A stretch of DNA of 53,958 bases from Chitinophaga pinensis (GTDB lineage: Bacteria > Bacteroidota > Bacteroidia > Chitinophagales > CAMDFR01), in assembly GCA_945860705.1 (NCBI GenBank), contig CAMART010000019.1:1-53958 (forward strand), given 5' to 3'. A program made the translations under genes and the position numbers. Under the pieces are notes generated by a model. The model did no database searches and had not been told where the DNA came from. It was given only the letters and a program-made list of their open reading frames with translations. This document shows, piece after piece, positions 36,469 through 36,914 of the stretch. How positions within the stretch are numbered: the first letter of the stretch is position 1; each line of letters starts with the position of its first letter.

Positions 36469-36588
36469 TTAGTTATTCTCTAATTCATCTGATAGTTTGT
36501 AGATTTTGCCAGCTAATAGAATATGGTCGGTGATCACTCCAAGGCTTGACAAAACCGACCATGATATAAAGGCTTTCATTTTATAAGT
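36469..36588. other. spacer with a hairpin at the outer edge of the tRNA repeat
   Basis: After the adhesin stop there is an inverted repeat ATGGTCGGT (36523-36531) / ACCGACCAT (36554-36562). Immediately after it the sequence joins the tRNA repeat unit (AAAGGCTTTCATTTTATAAG). The hairpin thus stands at the outer boundary of the tandem duplication, in place of the left arm of the tRNA terminator found in the complete units. Confidence 0.75.
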
Positions 36589-36668
36589 GGTCCCACTTGG
36601 GCTCGAACCAAGGACTCTCCCGCTATCAGCGGGATGCTACTTTCCTTAATTAATCTTATTAGTTATGA
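36589..36668 (-). pseudogene. tRNA remnant 1, with an Ile(GAT)-like palindromic arm
   Basis: On the minus strand the T-arm and 3' acceptor (CTTGG-TTCGAGC-CCAAG-TGGGACC) are identical to the intact tRNA(CAT). The anticodon arm is replaced by TCCCG-CTGATAG-CGGGA, itself a 17-base palindromic hairpin whose loop would read GAT. The 5' acceptor strand and D-arm no longer pair. The alignment to the intact gene keeps the same length across the anticodon arm. Confidence 0.82.
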
Positions 36669-36714
36669 AATAAAAAAGCCTTTCAATTACTTGAAAGGCT
36701 TTCATTTTATAAGT

Positions 36715-36794
36715 GGTCCCACTTGGGCTCGAACCAAGGACTCTCCCGCTATCAGCGGGATGCTACTTTCCTTAATTAATCTTATTAGTTATGA
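36715..36794 (-). pseudogene. tRNA remnant 2, identical in design to remnant 1
   Basis: The second 126-bp copy, with the same T-arm, acceptor 3' strand and TCCCGCTGATAGCGGGA arm as remnant 1. The near-identity of the two remnants implies a recent second duplication. Confidence 0.82.
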
Positions 36795-36797
36795 TAT

Positions 36798-36828
36798 AAA
36801 AAAGCCTTTCAATTACTTGAAAGGCTTT
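36798..36828 (-). terminator. terminator of the tRNA(CAT) gene
   Basis: Perfect 12-bp stem (36801-36812 with 36817-36828; AAAGCCTTTCAA/TTGAAAGGCTTT), loop TTAC, with a T-run on the minus strand. The same hairpin recurs 126 bases to the left. Confidence 0.85.
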
Positions 36829-36839
36829 CATTTTGTATG

Positions 36840-36914
36840 TGGTCCCACTTGGGCTCGAACCAAGGACCCCCTGATTATGAGTCAGGTGCTACTAACCAAC
36901 TGAGCTATAGGACC
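36840..36914 (-). tRNA. tRNA with CAT anticodon (Met elongator or Ile2)
   Basis: Minus-strand cloverleaf: acceptor GGTCCTA with TGGGACC, anticodon arm CCTGA-CTCATAA-TCAGG with CAT, T-arm CTTGG-TTCGAGC-CCAAG, discriminator A, no encoded CCA. A CAT anticodon may belong to elongator tRNA-Met or to the tRNA-Ile that TilS modifies with lysidine; I cannot settle this from the sequence. A minus-strand TATATTTG box lies at 36952-36945. Confidence 0.92.

Follow-up and report, generated by a model that had tools for sequence, protein, structure and literature searches.

The closest described counterpart of the locus reported here is SegB of the T-even phages, a free-standing GIY-YIG homing endonuclease whose gene lies beside tRNA genes of many isotypes (PMC13096335, citing Brok-Volchanskaya 2008). 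SegB is reported to cleave inside tRNA genes and to cause the unit of tRNA and nuclease to multiply in tandem (PMC13096335). The nuclease described below has as its nearest solved structure, by sequence, that of BH0048, a single-domain GIY-YIG protein of the UPF0213 group (PDB 1ZG2; E 2.6e-5). We know of no tRNA-linked cassette among UPF0213 proteins. The tyrT/rtT repeats of E. coli likewise form a tandem series downstream of a tRNA gene, and each includes part of the tRNA 3' end; they are not known to have an anticodon-arm hairpin or a nuclease cassette. REP sequences and Rickettsia palindromic elements resemble the hairpins described here in being short palindromes, dispersed and capable of lodging within genes, but our hairpins are tied to one place in a partial tRNA copy and to a GIY-YIG open reading frame (ORF).

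The window (the whole stretch of DNA analysed, 53,958 nucleotides) carries an array behind a tRNA-Met gene that probably belongs to a widespread and apparently undescribed family of small selfish cassettes on Bacteroidota tRNA genes. Like the SegB system, these cassettes join a GIY-YIG nuclease gene to tRNA genes of many isotypes, and the reported SegB motif (RAWTSGAAC; reversed, GTTCSAWTY; PMC13096335) fits, by our own reading, the tRNA T loop. Unlike that system, the cassettes are chromosomal, occur in Bacteroidota, carry a single-domain ORF of about 80 to 105 amino acids (aa), which by analogy would encode a cutting enzyme, and hold a half-tRNA with a hairpin for an anticodon arm. In the open-licence literature, preprints excluded, we found no linkage of a GIY-YIG gene with a tRNA gene in bacterial chromosomes.

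The array behind the tRNA-Met gene

The array and its parent gene comprise the following parts, in the order in which they are read on the minus strand:

36839 to 36914, minus: intact elongator tRNA-Met(CAT), the parent gene (ARAGORN; Rfam RF00005, 60.1 bits)
36798 to 36828, minus: intrinsic terminator of the tRNA-Met gene, an inverted repeat with a T run after it
36694 to 36819, minus: unit 1, 126 bp, 99% identical to unit 2
36767 to 36797, minus: AT-rich spacer of unit 1, in the slot of the GIY-YIG ORF in full cassettes elsewhere
36761 to 36766, minus: D-stem scrap GTAGCA of unit 1, identified by its identity with tRNA-Met
36744 to 36760, minus: hairpin TCCCG-CTGATAG-CGGGA of unit 1 in the place of the anticodon arm, with homologues elsewhere
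36713 to 36743, minus: half-tRNA of unit 1, made of the variable loop, T arm and acceptor 3' strand of tRNA-Met plus the following C
36672 to 36702, minus: terminator copy after the half-tRNA of unit 1 (terminator-like score at 36674 to 36703)
36568 to 36693, minus: unit 2, 126 bp, from the repeat search
36618 to 36634, minus: hairpin of unit 2
36587 to 36617, minus: half-tRNA of unit 2
36568 to 36586, minus: truncated terminator closing the array, recognised by sequence

The tRNA-Met gene and its terminator are thus followed by two units, which a repeat search recovered as a 126-nt pair of 99% identity, together with a 74-nt repeat present three times (at 36568, 36694 and 36820), the third copy of which lies inside the tRNA gene itself. 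Each unit runs through spacer, GTAGCA, TCCCGCTGATAGCGGGA, GAGTC, T arm and acceptor 3' strand. The 3' half of the window unit is 97% identical to that of tRNA-Met; from the 5' side of the tRNA, the D-stem GTAGCA alone is kept and the acceptor 5' strand is absent. An earlier note on this DNA had described tandem units at exact 126-base steps, a tRNA 3' half whose anticodon arm is altered, lying downstream of the tRNA terminator on the minus strand, an altered 5' half, and a T arm, acceptor 3' strand and terminator kept across units. All of this agrees with what we observe, the last terminator being truncated.

ARAGORN and Rfam place a single tRNA at the array locus, tRNA-Met(CAT). Covariance scoring, which the earlier note had proposed as a check, put the remnants below tRNA level, with no match at E<=1 in a local search with Rfam, and the remnants are missing from a genome-wide tRNA search of the source genome. 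Besides tRNA, known RNA families in Rfam gave only weak, sub-gathering matches at the locus, and the RtT family gave none. No GIY-YIG ORF is present in 36568 to 36838. The window array itself is most likely inert.

Two further features were observed here. Just past the array, at the start of the interval covered by the earlier note, an inverted repeat (GGTCGGT ... ACCGACC, 36525 to 36560) may terminate the neighbouring gene or represent a tRNA-like remnant that has collapsed. An 89-aa ORF on the plus strand (36634 to 36903), antisense across the remnants and the tRNA gene, is probably spurious.

Hairpins and half-tRNAs beside other tRNA genes

The triplet GAT in the hairpin loop had been taken for an isoleucine anticodon, with the reservation that this might be chance in a palindromic arm, and the reservation was right. 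Homologous arms precede Val, Arg, Lys, Pro, Asn and Thr half-tRNAs, and we rejected a tRNA-Ile(GAT) identity on this ground together with the missing covariance match and the missing 5' acceptor strand. Because the loops of the homologous arms resemble the anticodon loop of the respective parent tRNA, GAT is best read, from the sequences, as a changed CAT of the parent Met loop (CTCATAA to CTGATAG).

In the homologous arms, the TCCCG/CGGGA stem is shared and the inner 5 to 14 nt are mostly paired. Across 75 unique units, the hairpin loop scored on average 3.47 against the anticodon loop of its own parent versus 2.55 for other parents (SD 0.10), and the anticodon triplet of the parent was kept in 27% versus 10%; the p value for this likeness is about 0.0005, from a permutation test that is inflated by kinship. 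Inner hairpin pairs were held in 95% and 98% versus 62% and 43% after permutation, a comparison inflated by kinship in the same way. The GTAG before the window hairpin, a tag that also marks hairpins of REP/RAYT systems, comes from the Met D stem, and GAGC or GCGC stands there at many other loci. Given the likeness of the loops and the covarying inner pairs, the hairpin is best interpreted as the parent's own anticodon arm, in which the stem was replaced and lengthened.

The combination of hairpin and half-tRNA recurs widely. Of the 396 genomes of the order, 45 contained the pattern GCATCCCG-N3-14-CGGGA-N6-10-GGTTCRA, and none contained the reversed pattern, which served as control. A GTDB-wide scan gave at least 118 matching stretches; among the matches listed, 115 loci were sorted by phylum, and 86 of them are Bacteroidota. 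At 56 loci in GTDB genomes the half-tRNA matches a nearby intact tRNA, and 50 of these are Bacteroidota, the other 6 lying elsewhere. Some pattern matches, both in and outside Bacteroidota, are ordinary tRNAs or chance. The parent tRNAs of the units include Val, Arg, Lys, Met, Pro, Thr, Asn, Gln, Phe and Ala. Most units (84) follow the tRNA; another 13 are found upstream of it and have a 5' half instead. Upstream-type units, in which a tRNA 5' half or a whole tRNA plus hairpin stands before an intact tRNA, were seen at L033, L037, L028, L030, L041, L046 and L169.

On an alternative view, the hairpins derive from a mobile palindrome of the REP or RPE kind, dispersed in the genome, copies of which happened to land in tRNA remnants; this reading concerns only the origin of the hairpins and is compatible with a cassette. 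The earlier note had suggested looking for the same palindrome elsewhere in the genome. The exact CCCGCTGATAGCGGG has no further copy within 2 mismatches in the source genome, and the wider class TCCCGN4-12CGGGA has 36 sites there versus 0 for the control, most of them in a dispersed 16-bp TCCCGAANNTTCGGGA family and some of them terminators. Other tRNA remnants also hold other palindromes, in the T loop or the acceptor: 16-bp palindromes interrupt both of these parts in a Phe half-copy (L271), and a second palindrome interrupts the T loop of a Val remnant (L244). The T-loop palindrome of the Phe remnant shows a compensated change between the source genome and its congener G002 (TTCCGAAGCTTCGGAA versus TCCCGAAGCTTCGGGA). 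What speaks against a mobile palindrome is that the hairpin occupies a single position in many lineages and that letters of the parent's anticodon loop are retained in its own loop more often than by chance. We consider this origin possible, if doubtful.

Palindromes of the TCCCGAANNTTCGGGA type are dispersed in the source genome (L245 to L258 and others). In L247, L248, L250 and L256 they form the apex of a longer imperfect inverted repeat, and elsewhere they stand within AAGTATCAAG-like short repeats.

A GIY-YIG nuclease in the spacer slot

A full cassette consists, in order, of an intact tRNA, a terminator, a GIY-YIG ORF, a D-arm scrap, the hairpin and the 3' half of the same tRNA, and is often closed by a second copy of the terminator. 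The cassette is about 300 bp long, and its ORF starts right behind the terminator and encodes a GIY-YIG domain (PF01541; E 2e-10 to 7e-20). In 69 of the 188 hairpin units counted, the end of the ORF lies no more than 150 bp upstream of the hairpin. When 25 small GIY-YIG ORFs were chosen by Pfam score only, blind to tRNA, 12 had an adjoining tRNA or T-loop motif, versus about 0.05 motifs per 450 bp. That about half of the sample has no tRNA neighbour counts against the cassette reading; L173 and L195, which lie outside the 12, show tRNA remnants on inspection.

In an alignment of 100 cassette ORFs, the catalytic positions (Y, Y.G, R, H and E) are conserved, and dN/dS ranges from 0.04 to 0.36 in 9 of 11 close ORF pairs. 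Judged from these sequences, the nuclease is mostly under purifying selection, which was not seen in the remaining two, very close pairs with few changes in each. No DNA-binding domain besides GIY-YIG was recognised in the small nuclease, and this counts against a homing reading. One cassette protein had no match among 50,697 phage records.

The source genome (G000) holds other cassettes. A complete one with a duplicated terminator lies at tRNA-Phe (L271; G000:C2, about 209705 to 210378, minus strand), and at L244 (G000:C7, 22200 to 23500) a frame-broken GIY-YIG cassette precedes a hairpin and the 3' half of a tRNA-Val. Another candidate for the cassette nuclease of this genome, L181, was rejected, as it is not tRNA-linked; the linked gene is the one at tRNA-Phe.

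Between tRNA and half-tRNA, we saw only a GIY-YIG ORF or a spacer, and met no integrase-bearing island. This bears on the idea that the units are attachment-site remnants of integrase-borne islands inserting at tRNA 3' ends. A restored tRNA 3' half is the hallmark of such integration, but elements of about 300 bp in which GIY-YIG is the only gene seen do not look like islands, and an anticodon-arm hairpin with a D-arm scrap misfits a simple crossover. We regard this origin as extremely improbable.

One tRNA-Lys locus is flanked by orthologous genes on either side. Its site is empty in four species (L198, L199, L202 and L218) and filled by the cassette in two (L204 and L212), and in L223 it shows a truncated, decayed ORF and no hairpin. 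Within the source genus, the tRNA-Phe gene has a cassette in G000 and G002 and none in G001 and G003, the upstream flank being conserved between G000 and the two empty genomes, and the tRNA-Asp gene has one in G002 and none in G000. Units at tRNA-Met are absent from the three congeners compared, and no ORF-bearing ancestor of the window array was seen. In a tree of the nucleases, sequences group by tRNA target across host families (37 changes versus 48.4 when shuffled, 0/200); the tree is weakly resolved, with few columns and many open forks, and relatedness inflates the shuffle test. A Lys clade, for example, spans Chitinophagaceae, Cyclobacteriaceae and Saprospiraceae, and the tree contains some target switches.

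Differences in presence and copy number among related species also argue against an expressed tRNA-like regulatory RNA, in which readthrough from the tRNA promoter would yield hairpins and half-tRNAs acting as sponges or decoys. The strongly conserved pairing of the hairpin would suit such an RNA, as would the terminator, at least partial, behind each unit, and RNA from the E. coli tyrT repeats is a precedent. The units sit behind a terminator, however, and a sigma-70 scan, a poor fit to Bacteroidota, found no promoter-like site at them. A regulatory RNA seems highly unlikely to us.

Origin of the window units and the proposed mechanism

Short ORF-less units occur beside full cassettes elsewhere. 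At L032 (genome G100), the spacer of a short unit matches, at 62 of 65 bases, the ORF end of a full cassette lying at a distance of 1.2 kb, and by this stretch in common the short unit is identified as an internal deletion of the full cassette. In Chryseobacterium jejuense, one tRNA-Arg bears a tandem pair of full units and a second tRNA-Arg bears several units that lack the ORF; short-unit spacers of this species (L105) show a weak similarity to the ORF tail (p 0.033), and in another L105 spacer the match to the ORF cassette is confined to the terminator and the ORF start. The window array resembles these ORF-less units. Its own spacer has no significant similarity to the ORF ends tested (p 0.15 and 0.47), so that an ORF tail is not supported there, and we infer only by analogy that the window units were derived from an ORF-bearing cassette stage.

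The array might instead have arisen by plain tandem duplication of the tRNA 3' half and terminator, through replication slippage or unequal crossing-over, and have decayed afterwards, no element being involved. The exact 126-bp period and 99% identity look like the product of recent unequal crossing-over, and the array has no ORF and a spacer unrelated to the ORF ends tested. Slippage, however, would not be expected to place a TCCCG/CGGGA stem at one position beside many tRNA types and in many host families, nor a GIY-YIG ORF frequently in that slot, and the short unit at L032 was demonstrably deleted from an ORF cassette. Duplication alone is an unlikely account.

Taken together, we consider that the array is probably what remains, without its ORF, of a GIY-YIG homing cassette that parasitises tRNA genes and corresponds in bacteria to phage SegB. 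Of the earlier interpretation, the structure of the array stands and the Ile arm falls, and membership in a GIY-YIG cassette family had been missed. For cutting, homing and the role of the hairpin, we infer the following scheme. The nuclease would cut those copies of its own tRNA gene that are not interrupted, and the break would be repaired from a chromosome with the cassette, which would thereby be copied in, the tRNA halves serving as homology arms. The host retains a functional tRNA, since a 3' half is supplied or duplicated by the cassette. Either cuts or unequal recombination across the repeated 3' halves would give rise to tandem arrays and to units that lost the ORF by deletion, like the two in the window. 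The hairpin most likely stops the half-copy from acting as a tRNA and as a nuclease target, the shielding being a guess. The intact tRNA beside each cassette should remain a target, which leaves self-protection unexplained and counts against homing.

More tentatively, the cassettes could represent a new Bacteroidota class of minimal selfish elements, each with a nuclease of roughly 85 aa, homing isoacceptor by isoacceptor, with a hairpin arm that shields the cassette from its own nuclease, and leaving tandem ORF-less relics behind; we find this proposal plausible and stop short of calling it probable. If true, many small "GIY-YIG nuclease family" genes of Bacteroidota would gain a place and a role as tRNA-gene parasites, phage SegB would have a parallel on bacterial chromosomes, and the half-tRNAs and pseudo-tRNAs found beside Bacteroidota tRNA genes would be explained. 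The cassettes would also offer a very small system for testing how a nuclease aimed at a vital gene spares its host.
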